Source: Amphirosellinia nigrospora (taxonomy: Eukaryota; Ascomycota; Sordariomycetes; Xylariales; Xylariaceae). Taken from it: DNA of 64,000 nucleotides. The DNA is taken from NCBI GenBank assembly GCA_004123355.1, contig SCHM01000002.1, forward strand, positions 2,046,001 through 2,110,000, in the 5' to 3' direction. Below are positions 28,478 through 59,885 of the stretch, piece after piece. The position numbers and the translations under genes were made by a program. Below the pieces are notes generated by a model, which was not told the DNA's origin, did no database searches, and was given only the letters and a program-made list of their open reading frames with translations. Each line of letters begins with the position of its first letter. Position 1 is the first letter of the stretch.

Positions 28478-31400
28478 CTGATGACACATGTTGATACTCG
28501 TCATGTCGGGGCATCGTGAGATCCCCCTATACTGGATAACCCGTCGAGGGCCATGTTCTCCGAGGTAGCTTAAGCCGTCAACGGCGCGTACCGAGATGAA
28601 GATACTGCGAAGTCTAGAAGTTAGTGAGATATCCTCCTTAGTCACAACGACGGAGGGAACAGCGCTAGCAGCGAGGCTCACGATGCTTTGTCTGGCGGTA
28701 TATTTCGAGTACTATTCAGAAATGCTGTGATTACAATTGTGACAAAAGAGATTTAATTCTTGGCTACTCGTTGTGTTCACATATATACCTCGATGAGAAG
28801 CGGGGTAAGGAGTGTTGTCGTCACAGTCACCTATATCGGCCCGGGAGATAGACGGGCTCCAACAAAGCGACATACCGGGTTCCATGCCGGCGGTCATTAC
28901 TTGTATGGGATGGCACTGTATACAATACCTAGTTTATTTGGGTGAAGTTATGGGGATGTCGGCTGGAAGGCCAATCCCATTCACGGTATCAACAGTATAC
29001 GCTCACATTAGTTATCGTATTATACTGGCTCGTAGTAGGGCTTCTGCAGCTATTGTGGTAGATAAACGCATGTCGGTCGATCAGATATATCGTAAGTAGC
29101 ATCATAAGTACGTCATACGCAGAGGCGCGAGCTGTATGTCGTCTTGTTATTGACTAACAGAAAAGGTTCGAACTCACAGGACAGTTTCACGAGGCAAAGC
29201 ATGATTATCTCGTGGAATTTTAACCTGGGTACCAGCATAACAACCAATAAGGCTCCGTCTGTAAGCACGGGTTCTTGATAGCCCTACACTGTACGGCGGC
29301 GCCTCATCGCCTTTTAAACCCTACCAACTATAAATCTGGCGTTTGAAGGAACGCTAAATGTAGCTAAGGTGAGCACTCGTGGTAATCGGGGTGTTCTGGT
29401 AGATGGGGCCCCTAGTATTGCATAGGATCGACGTCTTGCTGGTGTCGAAATACAGTATCTCACCTCCTTATGATTGCGTCTTCTAGACAAGACTTATATT
29501 GGCGAGAAGTGATGTGGTATACTTGACGCATTGTATGATGGCCTTGCTAGGTAGTTCTGAGAATTGATATAACCTTGCCGGCCATCTGTGGAGCTGGCTG
29601 ATCAACCTACTATTCATATGATGACTTATACATATAAAGATAGAGGGGATTGTTATCTCCTACCACATTACTAATTTAATGGATACCCAGCTATAATAAG
29701 GGCTTCTGCCAAGGGCCTGGAATAGTGTTCAAATTATCGTAATCCTTTTATGAAGTCAAGGGGCCATGAAGGTTTGTTCCCTCGTCTCTTCGATGTAGGA
29801 GAATTATAGCCCATGTACCCAAACGCCTCGTCTCTTGTTTCCTATTTCTCTGCTGTCTCGGAGTCCGGGCGTTACACTCGGATACTCCCAACAAGAGTCC
29901 GAAACCTGGGATACACAGAGCCGTATGACACAACTCAGCAAGGTCTTTGGTAATATCCAGGTCGACGGGACTCCGTCAGAGCGGGGGCTGACGCCGCAGA
30001 CAGGAACGGCGCAAGAGCTTCATTTTCAAAGATATAACCAACGCTATAATATAGGCGGTCGAAAGATGAACTCGAAAATTGAAACTAGATAAGGGAGTTA
30101 GATTATTACGAGTCCTACCTTACGACAACGCCTAGGTATCGCGAGATAGCCAGCTTATATGCCCAGGGCTCACACATGCACGACAGCTAGCCCATCTCAC
30201 GAAGTGAGAGCTAAGAAGGCGGTTGGTCGAAGTGCCATCAGAGACCCCCCAGTCTCTGGCAGGAAGTTAGCTCCGGCATCTTACCAACAAGTCGAATCGA
30301 CTCTCGCACGCTGACACCACACCAAACAAAGAAGATACGTGCGGCTCAAAGCCGCTGCCCAGTAGCAGGTGACACGTACCTATTCCCTTGACCCGGCGAG
30401 GTCACATTCCGTCCTCTCATCCCGGCACTCCCGAGACGCCTGTGACTGGGATTGCTTGATTGCCACGAGATATTTAGGTAGACAGGTAGACAGGCAGGTG
30501 AAAGCGACGGAAAATATCGGTCCCCCGCCCGTTAGTTGGAACTCGGGCAGCTGATGGGAGCTGAGCTTCTCACATCGGTTTCCCCCACGCCCTACTCTAG
30601 GGTTTTCGGTCCTCTCAAAACGGAAACTGCGCGCTATGCGAACGCTTCTCTGCATCACATAAGATGGGTGCGGGGGAAGCGCGGGGGGCACTGCGCCGTA
30701 TCCGAGCAGCACCATATTGCATTTTCCGATTATTATCTAGGTATCTGGGCATAAGTGTCTCAGATGCGCGTGTTCTGGCAGTTATTTCTCCTGCAGATGG
30801 CACGTTTTCGGGCGGTGACGATTTTCGTGATAGCGGTGACTTGGGATAGTTGCCTTGTTGTTGTGATTGGTTTATACACCTAGTGCCATTCACATCCAGT
30901 CCGGTGTATTTTTTGTTGGTTGGCAATTCGGTGTCATGTGCTCACGTTGACATGTGATAACACAGCTAGCTAGTCCTCTTTGTTCGGTGAGGGGTTTTGC
31001 TCGGCGTGGGTTGGGTTGGGTTCGGAGGGGAAAAGTGCAACACTCGAAGCTCAATCAGTGACATACCGAGCAAGCCTGGTTTCGATTGTTTCTCGGGGTC
31101 GCCCAAAGGAATACCAACAAAGCTCCTTTGCCCACCTCAAATTGTCAACTGTAGAAAGTCTGTCTTAAGAAAGCTCTTCGTGTGTCAGTTAACCAAGGGG
31201 ACAAAGTTGATCACCGAAACGAGAGGATAGACAATCTTGTTAAAACAAAGCACTGTGTATTCTAGGTAAGATATAATTGTACTTCCTAGTCTAATGGATC
31301 TCCGTGAAGGAGGCAACGTCTAAATCGTTCTTGTTTTGACCCCCCTTTTGAATAAAGGGAGGGTGACGCGACCGGCGGACCTTCTGTCCCATCCGTCCCG

Positions 31401-36683: not shown

Positions 36684-39600
36684 CTAGAAGCAGTTAAGGC
36701 TGCCCTTCTTCTTTTTCTTATTGTTGATCGCATTCATGCGCTCCTCCAGGTGAGCACGAGCGCGTTCTGATTCCTGCCGCTTCTTGCGTTCTTCCTCAAT
36801 TTGGTGGAGACTATCTCTCCATCGGGAGTCTTGAGGGGGTTTGTCTTTGAGTTCCTTGTTCTCTACCTCCAATTCTTGAGCCCGCTTCTTCCATGCTTCG
36901 GCGTCAGCCTTGACTTCTTAGATTGGTTCTCGAGATCGGTGAGAGCCTCCTCTAACGTGGTAGTGAGCTGTTTCTCCGCTTTCAGGTGCCTTTCAATACT
37001 CTGGATACGAGCTTCCTGGTCCTCTCGGATCTGAGCCATGGCGAGATCGTTGCTGACTGGCCTGCCGCCAGTTGGGGTGGGCGGAACAGGAGAAGTGCTG
37101 CCACCGGCTGGCAGGGGTGGCAATGGGATGGCTGGCGGTGGTGAGGGAAGTGATACCACAGATGCTGTTTTGCGCATTTGGGAGGTCATCGAATTTGTAC
37201 GCTTTGGTGCGTCTGCCTCCTCGACACGAGCCTAACGATATTGTCAGTTAACATGCAGTAGACTCCTGGAATAGGTTACAGTACCTGCAAAAGAGCCACT
37301 TCCTGCCGGATGGTTTCTAGCTCGACCTCTGCCTTCATCTTGGCGGCGTAGGCTTCCTCTATCTGAGCATTACGCTCAGTTTGTAGAGTCGATAACCTGT
37401 TGTTCGTGATCTGGGCTTGATCAAAATTGGTTTGAAGCTGGTCCTCAAGTTCTTCGACTATCCGTGATTGCTTCTTGTTCTTATTTTCGAGGTCGGTCAT
37501 TCTCTTTCGCACGGTGGTCAATTGCTCAGGGACGGACGGATAAGGGTTCTTCAAGTCGTTGCCATCCACATGCAGCATATCGTTCAGAGTTGATTTGACA
37601 GCCTCTAGATCACGCATTATAGTATTATTGATTGTAGAGAGCTCATTGATGTGGTTTTCAAGTTCTGCCCCTCTTTGCTGTTCTTCGCGCAAGATGCTCT
37701 GATAGGCGATCAGCTCTTCGATACGGCCGGAGAGGCTATCGACAGTGACCTCAACTCCCATAACTTCAGCAATTTGAGCAGCAAGCTTTGCCAGCTCATC
37801 GTGAGCTTCAGCGGCGTCGCTCTCCAATAGTTTGATGTTTTCAGCGTGCTCAGCCATCAGAATATTGAGCTGAGCGTCATAGTCCTGCTTGGAAGCAGTG
37901 TGGATCTCCTCAATCTGGCGAGCATGATCCGCATGAAGCCCCTGTAGGTTCTGCTCATGGGACTTTAGGGTCTTTTCATGCTCAGCGATTTGTGTTTCAA
38001 GCCGATCAATCAGTTCCTTGTGGTTATCGATCTCAGTTGTTGCAAGCTCCTTCGCTTGTGATATATCCGTCAGTTGATTCTTTGTGGCGGCATGTGCTTG
38101 TTCCAACTCAGAAACTTTGGCATTGTGACTATCAATAACAGCTCTGTACTCGTCGATCTCAACACGAAGGAGTGCAACAATCTTCTCATGTTGGGCCTCT
38201 ACTCGGTCGCTTCGGTGCGGATCTTGGCCTCGTTGCCTTGGGCCTCGGTAAATTTGACGTTGATAGAAGTTAATTCAGCTTCTAATCTCTGAATAGTTTT
38301 CTTCATCTGGCTCTCGGCAGTTTGCATTGCTTCAAGGGTACTCTGATGTTTTCCTTCCCAGCTAGAAAGTTCGGCTTCGAGCTGCGAAATCCTGTTCTCT
38401 TGTGTGGTAATTACATCGGCATCTTGAGCAGTATTCTCACGTTCACGGCTTCCCGTTGCGGAACCTGCTTTGGTTTCGGCAGCTTCTCGTAGTGAGACAC
38501 GCAAGGCCTCAAGCTCGACACGAAGCTCTTTTTCGCGAGTGGCGTAACCCTCCTGTAATGTCTTGAACTGTTGCTCATTTTGCTCTAGTTGGTCTCTCAT
38601 CGTGGCAACAACACTAATGTCCATGGGACTAGATTTCAAGCTAGAACGTTCACGTGTTAGACCGGATATAATGGTCATTTTCGTTTCCATTTCCTTTTTG
38701 GCCTCGGCAACATCGGCTTCAAGCTCCTGAATACGCTCGGACCTCATATGAAGTTCGTGCATCGCAGAGTTAAGATTAATTTCAAAGTTTTGCATCTTGT
38801 CGGGGTCTTGCTCAAAATTCTCAGTTGCGATGTTTCGAAGGGCGGCGAAAGAACGATGCGCACGGTCAATAATCATGACGTTCTGGCTTGACTTTCGTCG
38901 AATGACGGGCGTGGCAGTACCTCTCGGGGACGGTGGGTCGGCGTACTTGGCTTTGGCAACCTCGGTCTTGAGCTCCTCCACCGTGTCCAAGGTTTCTTGG
39001 TGCTTTTCTTCAAGTTGGGTATAACGTTCGATAAGTTCCTTTTCGGCCGCTGCTCTTTCGCTCGCAAGACGTTTGAGTTGCTCCAGCTCAATGGCAAGCG
39101 CGTCATTCTGCATAACTGAAGTATCAACGGTGAGAGTTTCGCTCGACTCTGATGGTTTCGGTCCTTCCGCGGTAGCTTCAGTCGCTACTTCAGTATGTAG
39201 AGTATCCGTAGTAGAAGGGGATTCCATAGCTGAGGACAACTCCGAGGAAAGCGATTGTGAGGATAAATGTGTCTCGTCTTTGCCATCGCTGAACTTTGAA
39301 TCCGATAAAAAAGACGATGGTCGTGTTTGGTCTGGGGAATTCACCGACAATACCGAGTCACGGATCCTGTGTGGGTGGCGTGCCTCGTCGACTTGATCTT
39401 GCAGTTCGGCTAACGCCTTCAGGGCCTCCTCATACTTGGCATGAAGTAAATCAAATTCACCAAGTGTAGATTCATGCTCAACTCTGAGATCAACGAGTTC
39501 CTGGGTAACAGTTTCAAGCTTATCATTTACAAACTGATTCTGGGCTGGGCTTTGAGGGGGTACTCTAGACCTGTCACACTCTCTTCTGCATTAGTGACTA

Positions 39601-42186
39601 TCGTTTCGGCAGCCCCATTTGTCGCCTCAGATGGCGCCGTTTCGGATGACTCCTCTTCGATAGCCTCCTTTTCGAGTCCCTCATTCACTTTGGGTAGAAC
39701 TTCACGGAGACTCAGACTGGCACGGCTCTTACTGGACCGCTCGGAAAAGGTACGGCGGTGTCCGATCCCTTGAGTTTGCATGGCTTCAGCCTCGCCATCG
39801 GCTTTGTTGTCATCGTCCTTAATATGGTCTAACTCGTATAACAGACTATCGAGTTTTCCAAGACTTCGTTGGCGCTCAATAATTTGTTCGAGCCGATCCA
39901 TCTCACGCTGCATTAGTTCCTGGTCTTGATCAGACTCTGCGAGCCTCTCTTCCAATGTACTCTTCGGAGCTGCTTCGTTCTCTCGGATCCGAGCGATTTC
40001 TTTTTCGTAGCTCTTGAATGACGGCGGTATTCTTCTCCTCACCAGAGCGTGTTTGCTTGGCCCGGAGCATGCATGCAGATAACTCTCAGTATTAGTCTCC
40101 CGATCCATAACTTGTGCACACGAGCGGTAAGCTGATTATTGATAGTCTCAACGTAGGCGCATTTCGTTTCTTTCTCTAACAATGACGTCTCAGTGTTCGA
40201 AAAGTGTGCCGAGTGCTTGAAAGCGATGCTCAAGCGTCTGAATAGTCTTTTCGTATTCCAAGACAACCTGCTCGACAGCCTGCGCAAACGAGTTAGATCG
40301 ATTCAAACGTTCCGTGGCGCTGTCCCCCAAAGTCTCTTCTAAGCTTTGGTTTTCTGCAGCCTCGTGGTCCCGAGCCCTGGCCATTTCTGCAATGAGCTTC
40401 GCATGACGCTGGCCTAATGTATTGTAATTTTCTTGTACATCCAATAGTTGGTTCTGCAATTCGGTTTCCCGTTCGTTTTGGCGCTCGGACCTCTCACCAG
40501 CCACCACGTTACGTCTTTCCCCTCCACCACGCTCCGAACTCCGGATCTGTTCACGTAGGAAGGCAACTTCGGCCTTGAGACGCTCGATAATGGCTTGCTT
40601 ATCCCATCCTCCACTTGCTGTATTCTGGGCTTGCTCTGGATGGCACGGGCCCTTTGTGCATACTGCACTGTGTTGAGGGTTTCACTGAGATGGAATTCTG
40701 CAGGGGTCACACATGCTATCATGTAAGTGATTGCGTTACCGCCTAGCGAATCCTGCAGTAATCGTGTCAAACGCGAATCTCGATACGAGACATGTGATCC
40801 CGCCTGGCGGGAAGATAACTGCGAGATCACCTTGCCCAGCGCAGCCAGGCCTGCATTGATGGATATACCCTCTCGAGCCCGTTCGCCTTGTGCACCGGTA
40901 TTCTTCAGGCGTTCGCTACCGGCTAAATCGACGAAATGCAGCTTGCTATCCGTTGTAACCCAACTGTCGCCACCCGACATGGCCTCCAACGGTACCGAAA
41001 ATCGCTTCTCCGCCCCGTGCGCGGCTTGCGGCTTGTGCTTGCGCTGGATCAGGTTTAAACTAAACACGGCATGAGAACGTGACGATTTCGCATTAACGGC
41101 CGTCGCATCAGTCTGCCGTATAGTAGACCCAAAATTTAGAGCGTTCATCAGATCATCGACTGAGTTGATATCGACCTGGCGGAGTCCTGTTAGGATGATA
41201 TTACCTCTATCTTCACGAATATTAACGGCGCTGCGTTCATGTGGTCCGACACTATCAGGAAGAAGCAAGTCCCGCAGCTGCTCGTTGTAGATTTCTAAGT
41301 AAGTTGCCTTCAATTGCCAGTTTTTTTCAACAGGTTTCGAGGCCGGAGCTTGCATCGAGTATCGTGCAGGTGCACGGAGTTGAGACATGGAACTGCGATT
41401 GGAATTTCGCGGGGGTACGGAACCCTCGAGCTTTTCGAATAACTCTGTGGCAGCACGTGGTATGACACCTACAATAAATCGTGGTCAGCGTTTGTCAACA
41501 AGGCTGGACCTGAAGAACGTCCAGCATGGGTTAGTGGTTCCGGTGCCACGATCCAAGACTAACCCATAGAATCCAGCTCGCCTTGTTCCGAGGGACCCGA
41601 AGTGCCCATTGTATATGATTTTCCTGCACCCGACTGACCGTAGGCCAGTAGAGAAACGTTATATCCTTGCAAAAAAGCATTGATACTCTCGTTGAGATAG
41701 TCCCAAACACCATCTTGGCTGACATCAGGACCAAAGACACGATCAAAGACGAAACTTTCTTTCCCTGAGGTGCGTCAATTGCTATGCTGGTGTCTGATGT
41801 GGTTTGGACCATGGCTCTTTGGAATCGCTGGGGAATGAGATCGAAGCCGGGATCGGAGGGTTTTAACGGTGGTCGGACGCGAACAGCTATTTGCGCCAGC
41901 TAGTTAGCTTTGCAACGAAATGGTATACGACGAACCACCTAGGAAGTAGATTGATTCCCTGAGTAGACAGGCACCATGTAGTATGTCAGTATAGACCAAT
42001 AAATCAGCACTCACCAACTTTGACTGCAGTACGGCCACCATCTTCGTCTGATGCTCGACTCCCCCCACCAGCCTTACTTGTCATACTCAAACGGCTGCTG
42101 CTTCTTGTGGATGGCTTCACCATGGCGCTCATCGGTCGCGGTGGGAACGACATTGCACTAGGAGATCCAGGGGGTGAGGTTGCCAT
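36684..42186 (-). CDS. Long kinesin, kinesin-4-like motor with coiled-coil tail
   Basis: Plus-end-type motor protein, about 1,700 aa. The first exon (MATSPPGSPSAM..., 42186 to about 42015) joins AVRVRPPLKPSDPGFDL. The motor shows P-loop AYGQSGAGKSYTMG (about 41650-41610), switch I NAKSSRSHAVFSL, switch II LHFVDLAGSERLKNTGAQGE, INAGLAALGKVISQL and SYRDSRLTRLLQDSLGGN, closest in my judgement to kinesin-4 (KIF4/KIF21). An intron with donor GTTAGT lies at about 41463-41565. A coiled coil of more than 1,100 residues follows (40600-37290), then a Pro-rich stretch LPSPPPAIPLPPLP and a last coil ending KKKKKGSLNCF. At least seven frame breaks occur, near 41775, 40640, 40195, 40065, 39540, 38205 and 36918. 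Each is a one-or-two-base loss inside conserved or coiled sequence, so exon ends are approximate. Confidence 0.85.
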
Positions 42187-47593: not shown

Positions 47594-49790
47594 ATGAGAA
47601 TGAATGACGACTCACACCGCCTGAAGCTGCCAGGCTTCGGTAGCCGTTTGACCCAGGTTCCGGAACATGTCGTGAACTTCTTTATGCATGCGCTCTGGGA
47701 AGCGTCCTGTTTCGAGAGCACCGGCCTCAAGCTTCGAGAGGTGCGAATGATGGAGTTCATGAACCAAATCACGGACAAGCCTGAATGGGAGCGGAAGGTT
47801 TTTGATGAAGAGATTGTGAATAGATGGCGCGAGGAGGCAATGGGACCGGGAGCGAAGGAGATAAATCTCGATGGCGACGTATATATGACGGAGAAGATGT
47901 TTGATAATGTGAGTCGCCTTATTTATCATATCTTAGCGCGGGCACAAGCTTAATAGTGCAGTAGTGTATCAAAGAACTCCGTGACAAAGTTCAGGAATAT
48001 AAAGACACTAGATTGATCAGCATCCTCGATGCGGAGATTGAAGTAGTCAAATCAGACTCAGTCATCTCACAATCTCTTGCTCAACTATTAAAGGCTGCGG
48101 TTAGGCCTCTGGAGGATGTCCCAGACCACAAGAAAGACTGGCAGTGCGTAATTCTCGGAGTTATTTTCTTCCTACTTTGGCAGCTTTCAGAGCACGATGT
48201 TTCCTCTTGGGACGTGGATGATGTCTCAAAGTTTCTGACACCCTCACAATTCACACCATAAACAGCAATAACTAACTTCGAGTGTTGTAGTCCTGGGACA
48301 GACCGCAAGGTCCTGGACTTACTACATCCGTCATTATTTCCCATGGTCTATGGAACCTCGCGTGTCTTGCCGTACGGCAAGGTTCCGCTTCGTGAATGCG
48401 TGACGTTCAGTGGTAATGGCGAGACATACGTCTTGCCCGACGAGCCTATTTGGTCACGAATAAAACCAGCTCTTCTTGGCGGGACGCAGTGGCTCCCGAG
48501 CGATATCGCTTGGACCGCGTCGGGTGGTACGCAGATCACTAGCTATGTCAATAACTTACATCCAAAGGATCATGCCGAATTATACCCAGTGCTTGAGCAG
48601 TTCGTTGCGGCTGCTGTACCCCTTTGGGAACGCTGTTTGTATACCCGTGGCGGCAACAACAGAATTAGTACGTATCCCTAAATCATTAATCGTCGAATAT
48701 GAAAAGCTTTACTCGCATATACCACATATATTCCACACACGTCCAATATCTCGAAGAGCGTACGAGTTTTTACTATTTATGAAGTTATCTAACTCGTCAT
48801 GTTATAGTGAAGCCGCGGATAACTCAATTGCCTAGAGGCGACGAAGATGATTTCTACCTTCCTGAGGACGCGGTTTACGATCGTTCTCCGCTCCGGGAAA
48901 ATGAAGACGAAGATGATTACTTGTTCACAGATCAATATTACGATTGGAACAGGGCCCATCGAATCTTGACATGGCCGGAACCCGATGAATACAATCCGGT
49001 TCGCACGCGATGCGCAGATATGCGCCCCAATCTCCGAGCTATGTTTCCTGATGGATTACAAGTGATATTCAAGCTCGCCAATATCCATCTCTCGCCGGCC
49101 GACCCAGAGTACGGGGCGGTTCATTGCATGTTGAAGGCGCTCTAAACGACCGTATTGTAGCGACAGCGCTCTATTACTATGACTGCGAGAATATCACCGA
49201 GAGTGTCCTGACGCTGCATCACCCTGTAGACGTGGAAGAACTACGAATGATTCCTCCTCAGCACGAATTCGAGTCTCTTGAACGCTGGCTAGGGATCTCG
49301 AGCTATGACCCATCATTACAGCGACTTGGAAGGGTTGTCACTCGACAAGGGAGGCTTCTCGCCTTTCCCAACGTGCTTGCGCATCAAGTACAGCCGTTTA
49401 AGCTTGCCGATAATAGCCGACCGGGTCATAGAAAAATTCTAGCCATGTTTCTAGTCGACCCGCACATCCGCGTCCTATCGACATCCGTCGTGCCACCACA
49501 GCGAAAGGACTGGTGGGCTCGTGAGGTTCGAAAGGTTGGTCCATTGGCTACATTGCCGATGGAAATCTTTGATCTAATTATCGAGTCTGTCGATGGCTTC
49601 CCCATGACCTGGGAGGATGCGCTTGCGACTAGGGAAACTTTGATGCGTGAACGGAGCTGGGCGAAGGAGGCATTTGATAAAACGATGGAGGAAGTAAGTC
49701 TGCTATTTCTCTCTCAACTATCTTTCGCTCTTAGTAATAAGAACTAACATGCCATACTCACAGAACATGTACAATTTCTGCGAGCATTAG
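47594..49790 (+). CDS. DUF4246 protein, 2OG-Fe(II) oxygenase-like
   Basis: Fungal DUF4246 family. Exons: 47594-47908, 47965-48143, 48291-48667, 48808-49693 and 49764-49790. Conserved blocks are LKLPGFGS at the start, REVRMMEFMNQITDKPEWERKVFD, DWHPGTDRKVLDLLHPSLFP rebuilt across the second intron, VYGTSRVLP, and the C-terminal HVEGALNDRIVATALYYYD and VQPFKLADNSRPGHRKILAMFLVDP. The last blocks look like a jelly-roll oxygenase core with HxE, distal His and Arg. The last exon ends MYNFCEH, a family ending. One base is missing in a G run near 49111. Biochemical role is not established for the family. Intron 2 is one of four related introns in this region. About 590 aa expected. Confidence 0.85.
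48144..48290 (+). repeat. Introner-like intron, copy 1 (DUF4246 intron 2)
   Basis: 147-bp intron beginning GTGCGTAATTCTCGG and ending TTCGAGTGTTGTAG. It aligns along most of its length with the intron at 51959-52075 (shared TATTTTCTT, GATGTCT and AACAGCAATA blocks and an almost identical 3' end) and shares the AATTCTCGG start with 52077-52220. The near-ends CTCGGAGTTA and TAACTTCGAG can pair with each other, one pair being G-U. Sequence-related introns at unrelated gene positions suggest a mobile intron family. Confidence 0.65.
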
Positions 49791-50217
49791 AAGTCGGGCT
49801 AACGAACATGTTATTACAACGTGACGTTAAGGGTCAACAAAGAACACAAAAGAAAAACGTCTATCGGTATCACTTTCGGTATAGCCGTAAAGAGCTCATG
49901 GCAACGGATTAGTGCTCTTCATTTAGCGTCTATAGGTAGCTGCTAGAAACTAGCAAGGACAATGAAGTATGAACACAAGGCCCTAGGCATTCTTTGTTGG
50001 TAGTCCGGCATCAATATCCTTTGCTTTATGCTTTTTGTGTTCCTACCATCATCTGCACATTTTATATTGAACGTTACTCTCACCACTTCTACACGTACCG
50101 CCCATACTAGCTAGTCAACAACAGAACTCGGTCGCAATTATCATTGTAGATAATCACCACAGCATAATCTCTCGTTCCTAAGAACCCCTTGTCAAGAGCT
50201 CAACTCAGAGCCGGAAA
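49791..50217. other. Intergenic region
   Basis: About 430 bp; 3' end of the DUF4246 gene and promoter of the next gene. Nothing recognised. Confidence 0.5.
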
Positions 50218-51131
50218 ATGTGTGTGTTCAACTACAACGGCTATTTGGTCAGTAATTCTCAGAACCATTTCCTTCTTGTTTCAATAACTTTCCAATCAAT
50301 GACTATTTTTCCCGTTTCGAGCTACGACAGTACCTAGAAGCTTCCGAAGACCCTGAGAACCACATTTGGAGCACTAGTAACTGACTTCAAGTTTTATAGT
50401 GTGGGCACCCTAGAGATGGACCAATCCCACCAATCCTCTGCCAACAACACAATAGGCACCCTCACGAGCCTATGTGCAAGCCACTGAGGTACAACATCAA
50501 ACTTGACGAGGCGGTTTTTTGCGACCTCTGCAACGAAGGCATGACTGCGGCGAGCGAGCATTGGTCTGCGCAAACGACTCAATGGCGGGAGCAAAAAAAA
50601 GACTTGACAGAGACAGTTATTCAACAATTAAATATGGACAGAGCCCGCGCTTTGGCCCGAGTATTCACAGACGGTATTGCACAAGGCCCCACACATACTG
50701 GAAACCTCCAACTTCTCCGTGTAAGCCAATACATGCAAGTGGAGGCCGAGGAGGCAGCCGAAGAATTGGAACGGTCCCGTCGGGATTGGGAAATGAATAT
50801 CGAGGCCTTCACAAGGTTTGGACTCGTACCTGCCAAATACTTCGAAGACGTTGAGGAGGAGGGAAAGGCTATTGACAAGGAATATGAGAATCGAGTCGCC
50901 GCCTACCGAAAGTATGTGTTCGACCTTCCCACAGAATCTCAAGACGACAATCAGAATAAAGAGGCCCCCAACGACACATACGAGAAAATGATCCAGAGGT
51001 TTTGTACTCAGAGACGCGAGGTCATGCAGCGTTTAAGGGCCAAACACAGGTCACTAGAACCCAAGAATGAAGACTGGGACGTGGTCGAGGAAATGGAAGC
51101 CGTGGATGTTTCCGACGTCTATAGCTACTAA
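50218..51131 (+). CDS. Cys/His-rich fungal protein, unknown
   Basis: Exons 50218-50247 and 50400-51131 give an intact 253-aa protein beginning MCVFNYNGYLCGHP. The first 65 residues hold a Cys/His-rich module (CGHP, LCQQHNRHPHEPMC, FCDLCNEG) that could bind zinc. The rest is predicted helical and charged: VEAEEAAEELERSRRDWEMN, then an acidic C-terminus ending VDVSDVYSY. This Cys-His N-terminus with a helical body is a layout I associate with lineage-specific fungal proteins, but no function is known to me. The 30-nt first exon was chosen because splicing restores a Cys/His pair and an uninterrupted frame. Its only intron belongs to the related-intron set. Confidence 0.7.
50248..50399 (+). repeat. 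Introner-like intron, copy 2 (Cys/His gene intron 1)
   Basis: 152-bp intron from GTCAGTAATTCTCAGAACC to AAGTTTTATAG. Related to the intron at 52077-52220 at both ends (AATTCTC-GAACC-TTTCCTTC at the start; AAGCTTC, GTAACT-ACT and TTTATAG at the end). Confidence 0.65.
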
Positions 51132-51780
51132 GCTCAGACGTTAGAAATATGATGCAACTTCTAACAACAACGGAAAAGACGAAGATTCTTTGGGCATTGT
51201 ATCAGAAATCTTGCGGGAAGTCTGATCGCGGCTATACCTTCTCAGTGTGAGATACGTAGAAATTAATAACATGACAACGAGGTTCCTATTCCTAGCTCTT
51301 TATCTTCTCAATGAGTAAGTAGGGAAAGGATCATGCTAAGTTAAGAATGTCGCAATATTACAATTATCACTATGTATTGTAAAAAGTCTAGAATAGTGAA
51401 TGGCACCTACCCTCCGTTGTTACACTTTACCAGATTAAACTCGGAGTTGGGGTTCAGACCTCCGTCTCGGCACGGCGACACATAGGTAAGCAACCCCAAA
51501 AGATGAAAGCGCCAGCTGCCCAGTTAAATACTAAACGACGAAGTCCACCAATCTACAATGTTTATTGTATCTGTGGCTGTTTTAGAACGGTAGAATAGTC
51601 TCATGTGGTTGATCCATCCCCTACATTTCCCACTAATCATCAAGAATCTCTAAGGATTGAGTGACAATCTTAAAACTATATAGACTTACATAGGTATCTG
51701 AGATCTTCAGGGATGATACCCTTTTCACAGGTGTGATAGTTACAATTATCTTTTGCCTTACGGAAGTTCTTCAATTCAGT
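51132..51780. other. Promoter region of the LPMO gene
   Basis: About 650 bp. A TATA-like ACTATATAGAC lies near 51677, about 100 bp before the LPMO start. No gene seen. Confidence 0.5.
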
Positions 51781-52848
51781 ATGCGAACCCCTGCTATTGT
51801 CGTGGCCCTAGCCACCTCCCTCCCTCATTTAGCTTCCGCCCATGGCTTTGTGAGTGGTGTTAAGGTCAACGGAGCATGGACTGCGGGCAGCGATCCCGTG
51901 TGGTACTACTATCCAGCGGGAACAGCTCCTGCAACGGCGGGCTGGGATAGTCTTAACCGTACGCGGAACTATTTTCTTTTCTGTTTTGACAACTTTATGA
52001 TGTCTACAAACTCCTGAAACATTCAAAATTCATGTTTCGAACAGCAATAGCAATAGCTGACTCAAAGTGTTGTAGAGTAAGAAATTCTCGGAACCGTTTC
52101 CTTCCTTTTTAGCGACTTGTCGAGCTCGAAGTTTCCTTTTCAGGACAACAGAGTATCTAAAAGCTTCGAAACTCTCACAAACGAGCTCTGATTGGGGTAA
52201 CTAACTCAAAAGCTTTATAGAGATCTCGGGTTTGTTGAGCCAAACAACTTCGGTACCTCCGATATTGCCTGCCACAAGTCGGCCACTGTTGGAAAGAATT
52301 TTGTGAGCGTCAACGCCGGCGATACTATCACATTTTTCTGGAATACCTGGCCGGATTCTCACAAGGGCCCCATTATCAACTACATTTCGCCCTATGGAAG
52401 TGAGTTGCCCCTTCCATCATTCCGCCTTGACTTAGCTTGGCGGCTGTAACGTCTTGCTGACTTCCGCGTCTAGCCTCTGCAGGAAGCTTGCAGTGGAACA
52501 AGATCAGTCAATCTAGTATCGTTAGCGGTACTACTTGGGTGACTGACACACTGATTGCTAATAACTTCACCTCGGCTGCTACCATTTCCCAAGAACTTGA
52601 AGGCTGGCGACTATGTGATTCGCCATGAAATCATCGCGCTGCACGGTGGCCAGAACCTCAACGGAGCCCAGAACTATCCGCAGTGCCTCAACCTCAGGGT
52701 ATCCGGAAGCGGCAGCGTTTCGCCCAGCGGTGGCACGGCCGGCAGCAGCCTCTACAAGAACACCGACCCCGGCATCATGTTCAACCTCTACACTTCATAC
52801 ACTTCCTATCCCTACCCGGGACCTGCTCTGTGGACTGCGGCGAATTAG
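51781..52848 (+). CDS. AA9 lytic polysaccharide monooxygenase
   Basis: Secreted copper enzyme that oxidatively cleaves cellulose or related glucans. Signal peptide [20 protein letters not shown] is followed by [11 protein letters not shown]; the His after the signal cleavage is the first copper-brace ligand. The second is in [14 protein letters not shown], and the axial region is [15 protein letters not shown]. Cysteines in SDIACHKSA and YPQCLNL would make the core disulfide. Exons: 51781-51958, a single base 52076, 52221-52399 and 52474-52848, giving [16 protein letters not shown] across the first junctions. One extra base lies near 52585 ([13 protein letters not shown]). About 243 aa, no cellulose-binding module. 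A single intron ending at 52222 would also keep frame (NHLGF). Confidence 0.9.
51959..52075 (+). repeat. Introner-like intron, copy 3 (LPMO intron 1a)
   Basis: 117-bp intron from GTACGCGGAACTATTTTC to CTCAAAGTGTTGTAG, closely related to 48144-48290 over its whole length. It is followed by one base (A) and then another related intron. Confidence 0.6.
52077..52220 (+). repeat. Introner-like intron, copy 4 (LPMO intron 1b)
   Basis: 144-bp intron from GTAAGAAATTCTCGGAACC to CAAAAGCTTTATAG, related to 50248-50399. Directly follows copy 3 after a single base. Confidence 0.6.
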
Positions 52849-54735
52849 CTGTATCCTGAATGGTTTGGTTTGAACAGTGGCCTAAACTATTTTGAGGGAT
52901 AGAGTGCATCAAACAACAAGAAATATTAGCTGTATCTTATATTGGCTTGTGCGACTATGCAGAACACGGAGTTGCTTGATAGTTTGTCTCCTTCAGATAC
53001 CATGACAGTATTCAAGTCTCATCCTGTGTGAGGAATCTAGTTATCTTACTCGGGGATTTGAGCTGCGAAGCGTAACTAACTACTTAGCTGTATAATCAAT
53101 CTGAAAGAGCTTTTGAACTTGATTGCACGACAGCACCTAATGGCCGAGGCCACTGACTGTGGCTATAGTAGGGGAGTAGTGTCACATACACTAAGGCTTA
53201 GGTCATCCGAGATCTCGGTCGCCCGTAGATCTCGGGTGGTCCGGGTGTAACTCCGAGCTTCCGAAACAACAGTAACGAACATGTAGAGACTAAAATCGCC
53301 GGCCTCGAAGGAATAGAGTATGGACCTTCACAGCCCCCTTGACTTCGCAGAAGATTATAATAATCTGAACACCTTCCAAGCCCATTACAGAAGCCCTTGT
53401 TACAAGCAGGGATTAAAAGAGGTTAGTGAAAAAAAAAGCTTGTTAGTGTAAGATCCGCCTCTTAACTTTTCCCTATATTACTCGGCTTTATACTTACACT
53501 AGGCCGTAGGCACAAGGGAATTTCCTAGTGACTGTAGGGAATGATCGTGATAATGCATACTTTTCCCGGCGGACGAATTCAACCACCCCTACCACCGCTT
53601 TCCCCCTGCACGGACGGACTCGGGTAGACTCGGACGCGGACGGATTTAAGGACTTAAAAGGCTGCGGGTTCTCTTCGGAGTTACAAGTACCTTAGCTATA
53701 GCTTAAATTTTGAAGTCATAGTTGATTTACGATAGCAAATTAGACGAACCAATCCCAGTTTATCGTCTGTTGTAGAAAGCTAAAAAGCTTAAATTTTGTG
53801 TGAATTGTTGAGTTGGCGCAGCCTGTTTAGATGATGAATCAAATACGCGTCGCGCATTAACTACGCCACCCTTGAAGCGGGATGTCAAGTCAATCCACAG
53901 AATGTCAGTATGATAGATTCACCGTTTATTGATAGGGTGGCTAGTGTATGCCGCTACCGTAATTACCGATATACTGGCAGCCTAGGCTCTACTATAACTT
54001 TATGCGGAATGTCAAATTCTCGCAAAACCAGCAAGAGATAGCTACACTAGTGTACACTAGGTGCGGCTTACACATCCCGTCTGACAAATGGGATGGGCCC
54101 TTTTAGTGGGTGCCTTGAGAGTGAACGGCCGGCCAATCTCAACCATGGTATCGAGGACATCGAACACCGCCTTAACAAAAACACTCGACACATATGTGCG
54201 CAGTCTGGAACATAGGACGTCCTTAATACCAAACTTACTTACAACCGTCAGATAGAACAAAACAGCTTACTTCTACAACAAGTGAGGAGGACGCTTACGA
54301 TCATTCAATAGCGTCTCAATGCTCAATATACGAATCAATAAATCAAATACTCCATTGTCGCTTTGATTCTCATGCGAAGAGTGGAAGGTGAGTTTGAAGA
54401 CTGCTACAGTATGGAGAAGAAGTGACTCGTCGCGGGTAGCTCGGAGTTAACAACCCGCGCTTTTGGTTCGAAAAGGAGAGATGTGAATCACCGCTGGGAA
54501 TAAACTCAAGCTAACAGGGAACAACTCCATTTAACTAGGGCACCCTTGTTAGGTAGAACCTGTTATTGATCCAGTGCTTATAGATTTTGTATTGTTTCTA
54601 GTACAACTCTTCCAGATATAAAACTATCTAGCTCGACCTGTGGATGTTCAAACCATATTTTCCTCACCCTACTCCTACCTACCTTCTTACTATACTATAA
54701 TCTTAGTTCCTCAAAACATTAAACTACCAAGCAAA
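52849..54735. other. AT-rich gene-poor interval with an LTR fossil
   Basis: About 1.9 kb. Holds the degenerate solo LTR 53180-53404 and a small perfect-stem hairpin (CGCGGGT at 54431-54437 with ACCCGCG at 54453-54459). No protein gene recognised. Confidence 0.5.
53180..53404 (-). mobile_element. Degenerate solo LTR (fossil)
   Basis: About 225 bp, minus orientation, TGTAACA-type start and TGTGACA-type end. Flanked by AGTAG and AGCAG, four of five bases alike, consistent with an old 5-bp target-site duplication. Related to 26029-26281 and 29692-29930. No coding part; broken and old. Confidence 0.6.
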
Positions 54736-55364
54736 ATGTATAACTCTAAAGCCCTCCTTTTCCTAGCTGCCTTTGCAGGCACTTCAGTAGCTCAGAAATC
54801 AAACAGTGAATTCTGTTCCGAGCACTTGACTTCCTTCTTCGGCTTGCTTTTTAAAGAGGCTCCTACAACACCTGCCGCGATCCTCTCCTTCATCGCCTCA
54901 AACACTCAGGCAGTCCCTCCGCTGCCAACCACCCTTGACCCCGAAGCCCATCAGTCACAGCTCTGCGCGCTCGCAACAGCGCTGCCTTCATCGCTTCTGC
55001 CCGAGTTTGCGACCCTTGCCTCCGGACTTCTCAGCGTCGGCAGGGAGTATAGCAGCGATTCATCGCCTACGTCACGGACTGCGCCCCAGAAAACGAGGTC
55101 GCGAGCACGACCAGCTACCTCGACTACATCTTCACAGCCACCGGCAACATCTGTCAGGAGACGGCTACGCCCACGGCTACCCCCGGCGGCGCGTCCAACG
55201 GCACCTACCCGACCGTACCTACCCGACCGTACAGGCTCCGTCTATCCCACCGCTACTGGCTCCTCCTCTTCTTTAATCCCACCGCCGCTGCTGCCAGGCC
55301 CACCGGTGCCTTGCTAGGCGTAGCCGCCATGGGTGGTGTCCTCGGTGCTGCTGCCATGCTCTAA
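54736..55364 (+). CDS. Secreted, probably GPI-anchored small protein
   Basis: Starts MYNSKALLFLAAFAGTSVAQ, a clear signal peptide with cleavage near SVAQ. A helical domain with paired cysteines follows: EFCSEHLTSFFGLLF, QLCALATALPSSLLPEFATL, IAYVTDCAPENEV and TATGNICQE. Next come a Thr/Pro/Gly-rich linker and a hydrophobic end GALLGVAAMGGVLGAAAML, typical of a GPI-attachment signal. The frame changes near 55064 and again near 55210-55290, so the intact protein is inferred to run to the stop at 55362-55364, about 205 aa. The arrangement resembles fungal secreted proteins annotated as infection-structure-specific, but I am unsure of that family match. Confidence 0.6.
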
Positions 55365-55981
55365 GCGGCCACGATCGTTTCTAGTTTAGAACTCGAACGG
55401 TTTTAATTCCCCAGGATAATCGCCGAGGCATCGTTATTCGTTAGGACGGCGCTTCTATTCGAAGCTGGGAAGCTTGTGGTTAGCATTTTATTCAAGAGTG
55501 ATAAAATGTTAAAAATACTATATCGACTAGGCACACAGATATTGTCTGATAGTATTGAGGCTAAACAAAAGTATAATCATTGATTAGTAATCTTCTGCCG
55601 AATTCATTTGCTTTGTGAATGTGAAAGCGGAGCTAAGGTTAGCTGCCTTGATGTATAAGCCCTATCACTCGATTCATATCGTATAACCCTTGATAGTATG
55701 ATACGACGCCGTTGTCATCGTGTCGCAGATTCACCTCACCTCTAGGTCCCTCTCCTACTCCGTGGAACACTACAAGAACTATTTGGTTAGTTCCCCTACG
55801 ACGACTACGCCTTTAAGCTCTGGCTTTATACAGATAGTTGTCAGGCTTAGAAGCGGAACTTGTGGGGAGGAGGGAAGACGATGATGATGCCAAGTACCTG
55901 ATCTGAGTTAAGCCGATGGGGCAGCCATAGGCCACGACACGGGTCGCCGAAAGAGGCAATATCAAAATAATTAAACTTGTC

Positions 55982-56338
55982 TGTCACACGGACCCTGGTC
56001 AGTGCGCAATACAGTGCCACACAGGGTCCCACACGGAGTTCGCAAGATACTACCCTGCGAGGCTATGGCAGTCGTACGAGGTTATCGTGAGTCTCAGAAG
56101 CATATATCGAGCTGAACTCGAACCCGAAACACTCGCCTCACCGGCTACAGAGGTCTTACCTTTCGGTCCCGTGAAGAAGGGAAAGGAAAGGAAAGGAAGG
56201 AGAATTCTGAGCATAAAAAGGGCTCGAATTCTCCCTCGAGGGAAAAGGAAACCTAGATCTATATGGCCCCTTTGGCACCATAGTCGTTTATTACTCAATT
56301 GAACCTATTCCAAGCCCTCAATCAGAGCCCTTGTGACA
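55982..56338 (-). mobile_element. Solo LTR (fossil)
   Basis: About 357 bp, minus orientation, ending TGTCACACGG (plus-strand left) and CCTTGTGACA (right), which are inverted at the tips. Flanks TTGTC and ATGTC agree at four of five bases. Shares its first 35 bp with the copies at 56715 and 57457 but its middle is different, so it is a related subfamily. No internal region. Confidence 0.65.
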
Positions 56339-56714
56339 ATGTCATACAAATTAACATGCTAAGGCTTGTTGGCGAGACATAAAAATTGGGAATAGAGGCT
56401 CACACAGAGCTATTAATTTTTAATTGTACTGATTCAATATTTTACCAGTTATTAGTTTAAATTTAATAAACTCAAAGCTACTTGTTTAAATTAAACAGAA
56501 ACCCCGAAAGAAAAAAGGAACCCGCGATTTAGTTGATTTTGCTTCTGCAAGTTCTGTGATGTCAGTGGCCTTCCTCTAGATACTTAACTCTCCCTCTACT
56601 CCGCGTATTTAATACAATCTTTAATATGCCTTGGATAAAGCTTTCGGAATACTCATTCACTACTCCGGTAACTCTTACTTCCGATAAAAAAATGGCTGGT
56701 CATCACTCTACTAC

Positions 56715-56969
56715 TATTACAAGGGCTCTGATTAAGGGCTTGGGAATAGCTTCATTCCTTCAAATCTAACAATTAGCTATAGCGTCAAAGGACCTCTTGC
56801 TCTCTAGATTCTTTTCTAGAGGACTCGGGACCTAACTAGCCTATATATACACAGATTTCGGGCTACCCCAACGGACCTCCGTTAGCCTCTGTAGCCAATA
56901 TAGCTCAAAATGGTACAAATAGCCGAGCTGCAGCCGAGGGCTGAAGCCGTAGGCGAAATACGTGTAACA
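56715..56969 (+). mobile_element. Solo LTR (fossil), with target-site duplication
   Basis: About 255 bp, plus orientation. It is flanked on both sides by ACTAC, a perfect 5-bp target-site duplication, showing a complete LTR left by recombination of a full element. Closely similar to 57457-57698 in opposite orientation. Relatively younger than the copies at 26, 29 and 53 kb. No coding part. Confidence 0.75.
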
Positions 56970-57456
56970 ACTACCGTCACTATCCTTATACTTTTAGTCC
57001 CCTATTATATTTTATCCGGATGTCGCAATCTTATCACCTTAAGAAAGACCATACCTTTCTTAGTTGATCGATGTAACAAGAGCTTCTGTTGAAGAGCTTG
57101 GAGGGGTATTCAGATTGTAGCATCATTCTACAGAGCTCAAGGGAACTACAAAGGTATATTCCCTCAAATATTTTGAAGTAGATACGTGTGGCAATAGATC
57201 AAGGCAGTCCTTGCAGACAAGCCTTTCGTGAGAGGATTCAGGAGTGTCATGTTCTTCAACTTTTAATCAGTTTCATAATTCTAGGTACGACCGGTGGAGC
57301 TACCATATCACCATTATAAATACGCTGAGGACATCTACGAAGTCTACTTCCATGTTTTCATCTATCAGGGCGCCCGTAATACTATATAAATGGTGGTCCC
57401 ATAATTTTATTCGAATAAGCCCATCACTATCACGCGGATAAGTCATAGAACCTATG

Positions 57457-57698
57457 TGTCACACGGATTTTCAGCCCTCGGCTGCAGCTCGTTTATTTGT
57501 ACTATTTTGGGTTATATTAGCTATACAGGTCAACGGAGGTCCGTTGGGGTAGCCCGAAATCTATGTATATAGGCTAGTTAGGTCCCGAGTCCTCTGGAAA
57601 GGAATCTAGAGAGTAAGAGGTCCTTTGACGCCATAGCCAATTATTAGATCTGAAGGAATGAAGCTATTCCCAAGCCCTCAATCAGAGCCCTTGTGATA
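57457..57698 (-). mobile_element. Solo LTR (fossil), with target-site duplication
   Basis: About 242 bp, minus orientation, flanked on both sides by CTATG, a perfect 5-bp duplication. Pairs with 56715-56969 as an inverted repeat of roughly 240 bp arms around a 490-bp spacer. The two have different target duplications, so they are independent insertions. Confidence 0.75.
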
Positions 57699-57717
57699 CT
57701 ATGTACCATAGGACTAC

Positions 57718-57987
57718 TGGTCACTCGGAATGTTAGACGGCTGAATAATATTCGGCTCCTTCTCCATGTCCGAGATATATAGAACAAGGATACCAGTTAT
57801 GATAGGCTCGTATCGTACGGGCCCCTCCTCTGAAATCGTCTTCTGAAATCGTCTATATATAAGGGGCTACGGGTGATGTCGCGTTGTGAGGAGGAGCAGG
57901 AAATCAGAGGCCCTGTAGACCCCAAAGATTGTCTTAGCTAAATAGAACCGCAAGTTCTAAACGCTTGAGCATGAAGCCCTTGTCACA
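57718..57987 (-). mobile_element. Degenerate solo LTR (fossil)
   Basis: About 270 bp, minus orientation, TGTGACAAGGGCTTC-type start and CCGAGTGACCA-type end. Contains a TATA-like TATATATA about midway, as expected in an LTR. Only 20 bp from the previous LTR. No matching target duplication recognised. Confidence 0.5.
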
Positions 57988-58261
57988 GCTATGCAGCTAG
58001 ATACTCATACGGGCCAGCATCACCTCATTCATATTTTCTGATAGTTGGATGTCAAAGAAGTGGTATTGAAACGGCCATTATTACCAACCTTCAAACATCA
58101 CGTGATAGGCTAGACAAGTCTTGCAGTTACCTATGTTCAATATTCGTTCGCCCAAGAATCACATGAAGACTCAAATACCTCGGAAAAAGAATGTCATAAT
58201 CTATAACTACGAACTAAAATGTACACATGGTGGTGGTTACAAGACCAACGTTGAAATATTA

Positions 58262-59885
58262 TCAGCCCGCAAGTTTAGATATTTGTCCCAACAATGAGGA
58301 ACGGGCCTGTCGAAACTTCCGCCTCTCCGCATCGCTGCCATAAGCGACGAGAGTTTCGGAGATCATCAAATCCTCGATCTCCCCAAATTCGGCCTCATTA
58401 GGTCCTTCTTCTGTATTTTTTCTAAGTCTGACAAATTGCAGGTGAGGCTTGATAGAGCATAATGGTTCCACTGTGCCGTCAAGGATTAGCATAATCTTCC
58501 CAACAAAAATATATTGGGAAATCCCCGGAACGGGGTAAAAGGGAGCTTAATAAGGCTTACAATTTTCATCAAGTTCCGCCCTTCCAATATCTTTAACTTT
58601 ACACCTTTTCCCACTGTAATATCAGAAGTCAGTTATTGCCATGTCGGGAGTAGCATGTATGTGTTTAGGAGCCTTCAAACACTACCCTGGACTGGAACGG
58701 GAATTTTGTACTCTGGAAGTTACCAAATAATAAAATGGCCTCGAAAGCTACTCACTAGCGTACGACATTACGAAAGATATCATCTAGCGAGTCGTCTTCA
58801 TATTGGATCCGATTTCTCATGTTTGATACCAAACGGTCGACCCTGGCGGTACGACCGCTTGACTTTTCGTAGGCTTCAAGGTGGAAGGAGTAATTATCCA
58901 ACGATATCGCCATATCGCGCTGGATTTTAATAGCACGGGCTAAGATAGTGGTTTCAAACTTGTTCATGCTTTGATTCGAAATGGGGAGCAGCTCTGAAGC
59001 ATCCCAAGATTTGTCGGTAATTAGTCCTTAGCTTAGCTTCATATTTTCCCCACTACAACGTCAGCGATTAGTTATGTTCATTCTAAACAGAGGCGCTCTA
59101 ATTCATCACAACTGAGAGTTTCACTGTCCTTAGATTCGACTTAGATCAATACCAAACGATTGGGAAAGTTACTTACAGCTTTCAAATATCTTGGGTTGGT
59201 ATGCAGTGCCGTATATGTGTTGTAACGCCATAGCTGGATACCTAGATCGCGATACCCTTTCCCCTGGTTTTTTGAAGCCGCGGTTTCTAGTTCCTGAAGG
59301 AGATGGCACATCTTGATGTTTTTAACGAGGGCTTCCTCTTTGAAGATATCCTCGACGAGGAAACGGATGACAATAGCAGTGAGAACGTTACTGAAGAGAT
59401 TAAGAGTTAGGTAATCCGTCGACAGCCAGCAATGGACTCGTGGATAGGGTGCTCTTTTTTTGGGAAGGGGGGGGGCACTCTTAAATACTGACTTATCTGT
59501 GTCAGGATACCTTATAGCGCGCTTGAAATCCGAATGCTCTTTCAAAAATTGGTAGAAGGGCTTCACGATCGTTTTGTGATTTCTAATATCATTGAAGACA
59601 CGAGACTGCAGATTATCTGAATCAATGATTGGATCTAAAAATTGATCAACCCAAGCCACTATGTCCCCCAAAGATTATCGATATTCTAATACCAAGTGTT
59701 ATAACTCAACATCTCGTAAAGTATTATGTATCGAGACTTACTTTCCTCATATCAACCGTATGTATCCTATGGGGATCATGGGGGATCAGGTTCCGAATAA
59801 CATACGCAGGGAAAGTAACAAATTGCGTTAAATGGTATCGGCCGAAGTCAACCCCTTTGGCCTGAGGCTTGCTATTTGCACTCAT
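58262..59885 (-). CDS. Multi-exon orphan gene
   Basis: The start MSANSKPQAKGVDFGRYHLT is followed by QFVTFPAYVIRNLIPHDPHR. Exon 1 is 59885-59742 (48 codons, donor GTAAGT). Exon 2 is about 59695-59493 (NIDNLW-GDIVAWVDQFLDPI) and exon 3 is 59400-59177 (NVLTAIVIRFLVEDIF, GYRDLGIQLWRYNTYTALH). Later exons include MNKFETTILARAIKIQRDMA (about 58967) and the end SETLVAYGSDAERRKFRQAR before the stop at 58262. Introns are 50-100 bp with good donors. One base is missing in a G run near 59672 and exon joins after 59177 are uncertain. Mostly helical and soluble; I recognise no domain. Open coding pieces with consistent splice sites make it a likely real gene of about 300-340 aa. Confidence 0.5.

Follow-up and report, generated by a model that had tools for sequence, protein, structure and literature searches.

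Five related introns in four genes of Amphirosellinia nigrospora: a candidate introner-like family with a predicted one-nucleotide exon between two of its copies

In a 64-kilobase (kb) stretch of contig SCHM01000002.1 of the ascomycete Amphirosellinia nigrospora (positions 2,046,001 to 2,110,000; the whole stretch is called the window here, and coordinates are counted from its first letter), five introns in four genes form a candidate introner-like family. As judged from the sequences, the kinship of the five is secure but old, and the exons that flank them are unrelated. We consider it probable that they are old copies of one introner-like element, copied exactly and in sense orientation into unrelated genes, where they would be spliced normally. 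An initial annotation of this DNA had described four related introns in three unrelated genes; the common descent and the unrelated hosts stand, but the count was too small. The origin of new introns is an old question. Before 2015, spreading intron families were known in only six fungal species (PMC4457414; papers are cited by PMC number), and intron sets of Xylariales have been added since. Related copies that lie one base apart, as two do here, restrict the possible routes of insertion. The five introns, I1 to I5, are the following.

I1: 48144-48290, + strand, 147 nucleotides (nt), phase 2, in a DUF4246 gene; the ab initio run gave the same boundaries
I2: 50248-50399, + strand, 152 nt, phase 0, in an orphan gene whose product has 253 amino acids; the ab initio run gave the same boundaries
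I3: 51959-52075, + strand, 117 nt, phase 1, in an AA9 lytic polysaccharide monooxygenase (LPMO) gene; a shortened copy
I4: 52077-52220, + strand, 144 nt, phase 2, in the same AA9 LPMO gene
I5: 58614-58755, - strand, 142 nt, phase 2, in a fourth host gene without Pfam match

I1 to I4, at the coordinates first proposed for them, each carry a GT donor, a CTRAC branch site and a TAG acceptor, and their removal preserves the frame of the host proteins when the A at 52076 is retained. After removal of I1, the DUF4246 protein reads K-D-W-H-P-G-T-D; the frame of the 253-residue orphan is open across the I2 junction, and the frame is open on both sides of I5. The branch element lies 11, 11, 11, 12 and 11 nt from the acceptor in I1 to I5, and the lengths of the five (117-152 nt) compare with a median of 70 nt for 26 other predicted introns. 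The ab initio predictor and the splice score are simple models custom-made for this analysis; the predictor missed I3, I4 and I5, produced no AA9 model and covered the fourth host gene only at 59141-59750. The motifs from which the relationship had originally been proposed are present but restricted to pairs or trios rather than common to all four introns: AATTCTC(G/A)GA occurs in I1, I2 and I4, not in I3, and AACAGCAATA and GATGTCT are, among I1-I4, found in I1 and I3 only. At the 3' ends, GTGTTGTAG is common to I1 and I3, and TTTATAG to I2 and I4.

The evidence for common origin comes first from profile searches within the window. Each copy was recovered by a profile built from the other four, at 73.6 (I1), 42.0 (I2), 24.9 (I3), 53.5 (I4) and 32.0 bits (I5), and the best match outside the family to any leave-one-out profile scored 6.8 bits. 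I5 had surfaced when I1-I4 were compared with 91 pseudo-introns of the window, scoring 24.5 with I1, and it matches a profile of I1-I4 at E 4.6e-9; the profile search proposed with the initial annotation, run here within the window, returned the known copies and one more. No further copy with E below 0.26 was found on either strand of the window. In 20 shuffled windows the top null matches were 7.1-8.7 bits for five of the six models and 17.9 bits for the model lacking I2. Models of four random control introns retrieved the left-out fifth in 0 of 25 trials, while the family introns, in the same set-up, were retrieved in 5 of 5 (24.5-73.6 bits). When 28 control introns were compared with the family profile, 26 gave no match and two scored -1.0 and -1.9 bits. 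These controls are 26 ab initio predictions and two introns chosen by eye, all unproven, and one of them (48999-49062) sits in continuous DUF4246 reading frame and is probably false.

Pairwise comparison points the same way for most pairs. The six pairs among I1-I4 gave global alignment scores of 3.5-32, above the maximum of 2.5 for pseudo-intron pairs in 39,644 random draws; the draws repeat, since 91 pseudo-introns make at most 4,095 distinct pairs, and I5 is itself among the 91. In a shuffle test that kept the 6-nt donor and the final 22 nt unchanged and shuffled the interior 300 times, 6 of the 10 family pairs had scores that none of the 300 shuffles reached. Family z values range from 1.81 (I2-I5) to 7.24 (I2-I4); 250 of the 378 pairs of the 28 control introns gave a mean of -0.06, a standard deviation of 1.02 and a maximum of 2.74. 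Score separates the family from long control introns for 9 of the 10 pairs.

Several results weigh against descent of all five from one element. Four pairs are weaker in the shuffle test (I2-I3, reached by 1 of 300 shuffles; I3-I4, 2; I3-I5, 10; I2-I5, 15), and three (I2-I5, I3-I4, I3-I5) fall inside the z range of the controls. The check for better-than-random alignment, passed by all six I1-I4 pairs on global score, fails for I3-I4 on local score, which is unremarkable (P 0.35), and the global score of I3-I5 (-5.0) is exceeded by that of the top pair (3.0) among 55 pairs of long control introns; I3 is tied to the family mainly via I1. Gapped pairwise identity is 58-75% in the family and averages 64%, with a maximum of 73%, in the long controls, so that identity alone cannot separate the two because the ranges overlap. 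There are only five copies, and the near-identity that usually marks an active family is missing. Published fungal elements are said to possess stable secondary structure or inverted repeats (cited in PMC8469720); here neither I1 (z 0.19), I4 (z 0.20) nor the I3-I4 unit (z 0.52) folds more stably than its shuffles, and a test for an end helix gave P values of 0.047 (I1, uncorrected), 0.17, 0.45, 0.91 and 0.93. Two of the host genes, those for DUF4246 and AA9, carry frame breaks, so they may be early pseudogenes, or the assembly may contain errors.

Could the likeness be nothing more than shared splice signals and composition, with ordinary long introns aligning by chance? The blocks in common do lie mostly near the donor and the branch site, four pairs are weak under shuffling and pairwise identity overlaps that of the controls. 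We nevertheless regard this explanation as highly improbable, given that the shuffles left the splice signals in place, that 26 of the 28 control introns do not match the family profile, that the 250 control pairs show no excess, and that leave-one-out scores reach 24.9-73.6 bits.

The likeness stops at the splice sites. Between copies, identity is 5-40% over the 20-nt flanks; inside the introns, the first 26 nt are 35-85% and the last 30 nt 30-80% identical in ungapped comparison, in which indels lower the figures. All five copies (5/5) lie in sense orientation to the host gene. No junction repeat compatible with a target-site duplication was seen in two or more copies: the longest junction matches are 4, 3, 3, 5 and 4 nt, taken without a chance control, and they differ in position among the five, the TAGAG repeat at I4 arising because the acceptor TAG is followed by AG. 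No terminal inverted repeat shared among the five introns was found, and I1 alone could form a 10-nt near-terminal stem, CTCGGAGTTA/TAACTTCGAG. A consensus fold of the introns is likewise lacking (-0.12 kcal/mol), and Rfam gave no match at gathering score in the 64 kb, nor at E up to 1 in 48100-58800.

These boundaries bear on the idea that the introns are alike because they hold a common functional RNA, such as a box C/D small nucleolar RNA, or because they derive from a DNA transposon carrying its own splice sites. The TGATGTCT...CTGA blocks of I1 and I3 resemble C/D boxes, and a transposon-like repeat family occupies the same region; the blocks, however, are absent from I2, I4 and I5, the Rfam searches were negative, and both the shared terminal inverted repeat and the recurrent duplication-like repeat expected of a transposon are missing. 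Either version seems improbable to us. The marks of DNA-transposon introners, a target-site duplication and a co-opted splice site, were not seen in the five introns.

The proposed old introner-like element would be an ordinary intron of U2 type, about 145 nt long, copied from donor to acceptor in the sense direction into unrelated genes and there removed as a normal intron, each copy presumably being spliced in the cell. Copying may have proceeded through the excised intron RNA, placed into a DNA break, or through reverse splicing into DNA or unspliced pre-RNA; insertion of RNA into a DNA break is the model of PMC12403724. Copying from intron RNA fits better than a DNA transposon because the limits coincide exactly with the splice sites, the orientation is sense only, there is no site duplication and there is no exon pattern. 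In the AA9 gene, two copies would have been inserted one base apart, and the two introns would be removed in succession, with a single A remaining as exon.

That exon is predicted as follows.

Predicted one-nucleotide exon: 52076, + strand, a single A, the middle base of the CAA codon in N-Q-D-L-G-F-V

The junctions in the AA9 gene read AACC/GTACGC...GTAG/A/GTAAGA, and removal of I3 and I4 with the A at 52076 kept gives N-Q-D-L-G-F-V in the AA9 protein; the base is needed both for the frame and for this conserved AA9 motif. The prediction of a single-A exon between two related introns was set against enumerated splice models of the region (479 with one intron, 12,695 with two and 1,881 nested), of which the in-frame, stop-free ones (1,031 with one or two introns, 280 nested) were scored against four solved AA9 sequences. 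The I3/A/I4 model is the best joint splice and protein model, with a protein score of 219.5 and a splice score of 8.0, the next splice score among the 12 models listed being 2.5. Two two-intron models are slightly higher on protein (222.0 and 221.0) and have poor splice scores (-6.7 and -0.5). An alternative that yields the identical protein, 51959-52151 plus 52153-52220, also contains a one-base exon and has a splice score of 0.6.

The region could instead hold one long intron or a nested twin intron. Removal of 51959-52222, with a GAG acceptor, is in frame and gives N-H-L-G-F-V, and removal of 51963-52220, with a GC donor, gives N-R-T-D-L-G-F-V at a protein score of 215.0. The GAG model shortens the protein by one residue and lacks the D that all 5 solved relatives shown possess, and it uses a rare acceptor immediately after a good TAG. 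Under it, 9 of the 11 PDB matches drop by 2.4-8.1 bits (7ntl from 86.2 to 78.1 bits), whereas two partial PDB matches gain 0.6 bits and a twelfth, weak match appears. The protein score is 204.0 for the GAG model and 204.0 for the best nested models, against 219.5 for I3/A/I4, and the GC-donor model has a splice score of -4.5 against 8.0. The pair does not belong to the published type of nested twin intron, because a whole exonic base, the A at 52076, separates the copies. On this balance a single or nested intron looks unlikely.

The two adjoining copies of the AA9 gene more probably arrived separately than through local duplication. Separate arrival is favoured because I3 groups with I1 and I4 with I2, and because duplicating an intron together with the A would bring in an extra base and disrupt the frame. 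Of 1000 neighbour-joining bootstrap trees, 683 paired I1 with I3, 656 I2 with I4, 272 I1 with I5 and 90 I3 with I4. I3 is closest to I1, with 76 of 111 aligned columns alike, and identity of this pair in four blocks from 5' to 3' is 0.85, 0.50, 0.66 and 0.69; the corresponding values for I2-I4 are 0.83, 0.51, 0.53 and 0.65. I4 agrees with I2 in 89 of 143 aligned columns, with I1 likewise in 89 of 143, and with I3 in 66 of 108. The case for separate arrival rests on moderate bootstrap support, as identity over aligned columns is hardly lower between I4 and I3 (0.61) than between I4 and I1 or I2 (0.62), a further point on the opposing side. Arrival of the later AA9 copy through recombination with a cDNA of spliced mRNA is unlikely, because the neighbouring intron one base away survived and recombination would have erased it.

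One-base exons have been reported elsewhere, in Arabidopsis APC11 (PMC4674806) and in Fusarium CYP621A (PMC12940212). In CYP621A the single base is required for a conserved motif, as the A at 52076 is here; its proposed origin, however, is a cryptic exon that rescued a lost base, not two intron insertions, and the introns flanking the AA9 exon differ from those of both the Fusarium and the Arabidopsis cases in being related to introns of other genes. In the literature searched, mostly without subscription papers, no report was found of a one-base exon flanked by two introner copies. The AA9 pair offers a concrete origin for one-nucleotide exons that would be a new route, by way of side-by-side mobile introns. 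If the proposal is true, intron proliferation would itself be a source of the smallest exons and of units resembling twin introns, since the two AA9 copies bracket one base.

The initial annotation had also mentioned proliferating introns in Hypoxylaceae. Sister stwintrons and cropped sister introns are described from Hypoxylaceae and Xylariaceae (PMC8469720, PMC9024468, PMC12403724). Like the five introns they have proliferated without target-site duplication or exon bias; they work on the coding strand only, and their paired introns are removed in two steps. The [D1,2] stwintrons are marked by a GGT start and by an internal intron lying between G1 and T2 of the external donor, giving an AGT junction. 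The five introns could be diverged canonical relatives of these elements, sharing as they do the same kind of behaviour and a tandem pair of related introns, with the near-terminal stem of I1 recalling the near-terminal repeats of Xylariales stwintrons. We think this unlikely. The AA9 pair is not nested, an exonic A lying between its members, and shows neither the GGT start nor the AGT overlap; NTIRE-10 or the WTTCTAGAAA palindrome is matched by at most 8 of 10 letters in any of the five introns; and the branch-to-acceptor spacing is 11-12 nt as against 14 or 19 nt. The tie to Hypoxylaceae introns finds no support in any of these characters, and identity of the five with Xylariales sister stwintrons is not supported.

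A parallel to the proposed introner-like copies is found in the Dothideomycetes, where introner-like elements of Fulvia fulva, Dothistroma and Zymoseptoria are U2 introns alike in sequence and placed in genes that are unrelated; some of these families have diverged and are regarded as inactive, and two elements sometimes share a gene (PMC4457414). The present set differs in comprising five copies in 64 kb that are 52-68% alike and without a stable fold found, and in the spacing of its pair, 1 base apart, as against 145-626 bp for pairs in one gene in the Dothideomycetes (PMC4457414). A eukaryote-wide survey likewise describes introns alike over their width, and ascomycete families without terminal repeats or target-site duplications, but 59.2% of the 130 families it judged bear a DNA-transposon sign, of which none is seen here (PMC9860276). 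Its threshold for an introner family, as quoted in PMC12403724, is at least five copies. Within the 64 kb there are five copies, alike over their full width (I3 being shortened) and placed in unrelated genes.

Identity over aligned columns is 52-68% among the five, so the spread was not recent and there was no fresh burst. The local burst suggested at the outset therefore survives as clustering, not as a recent event: family introns make up 0 of 20 introns before 47.5 kb and 5 of 13 after it (Fisher P 0.005), a concentration after about 48 kb that is only suggestive because the other introns are predictions. More tentatively, and with somewhat less confidence than doubt, we propose that the set represents a new ascomycete mobile-intron family in which adjoining insertions create one-nucleotide exons, the target having been DNA or unspliced RNA in which an intron was already present.

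The host genes are these.

Host gene 1: 47600-49790, + strand, DUF4246 family (E 6.6e-74), with a frame break near 49112-49140
Host gene 2: 50218-51131, + strand, Cys/His-rich orphan of 253 amino acids without Pfam match
Host gene 3: 51781-52849, + strand, AA9 LPMO, whose last exon holds a frame break (~52585)
Host gene 4: 58300-59674, - strand, without Pfam match, exon limits provisional

Short homopolymer runs adjoin both frame breaks. The gene content of the window is fungal (acetyl-CoA synthetase, Thi4, kinesin, an ERCC4-domain protein, DUF4246 and AA9), and the Thi4 frame matches 3jsk (Neurospora crassa) best among PDB entries, a result in keeping with many ascomycetes. The end-to-end overlap of long frames in the kinesin gene (37279-41484, - strand) points to introns or more frame breaks.

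Two other introns of the host genes are weakly like the family at their ends and were not counted. One, of 124 nt (59053-59176, - strand, in host gene 4), scores -1.0 bits against the family profile, and 3 of 30 shuffles are equally good; the other, of 140 nt (48668-48807, in the DUF4246 gene), scores -1.9 bits, equalled by 19 of 30 shuffles. They are possibly copies decayed past recognition, and the likeness is not significant. A scan of IMG/VR with an 18-letter pattern returned five loci, the best at E 0.32 on the full profile, and these were set aside as chance.

A separate repeat family lies in the window. Among the matches listed, a motif similar to CCAAGCCC...AGAGCCCTTGT occurs in both orientations at 26248-26281, 29694-29722, 53366-53405, 56310-56336, 56719-56743, 57072-57105 and 57670-57696, and a long inverted repeat pairs 56712-56945 with 57470-57701 at 89-93%. 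These motif repeats are probably the ends of a DNA transposon or of a family of miniature inverted-repeat transposable elements.

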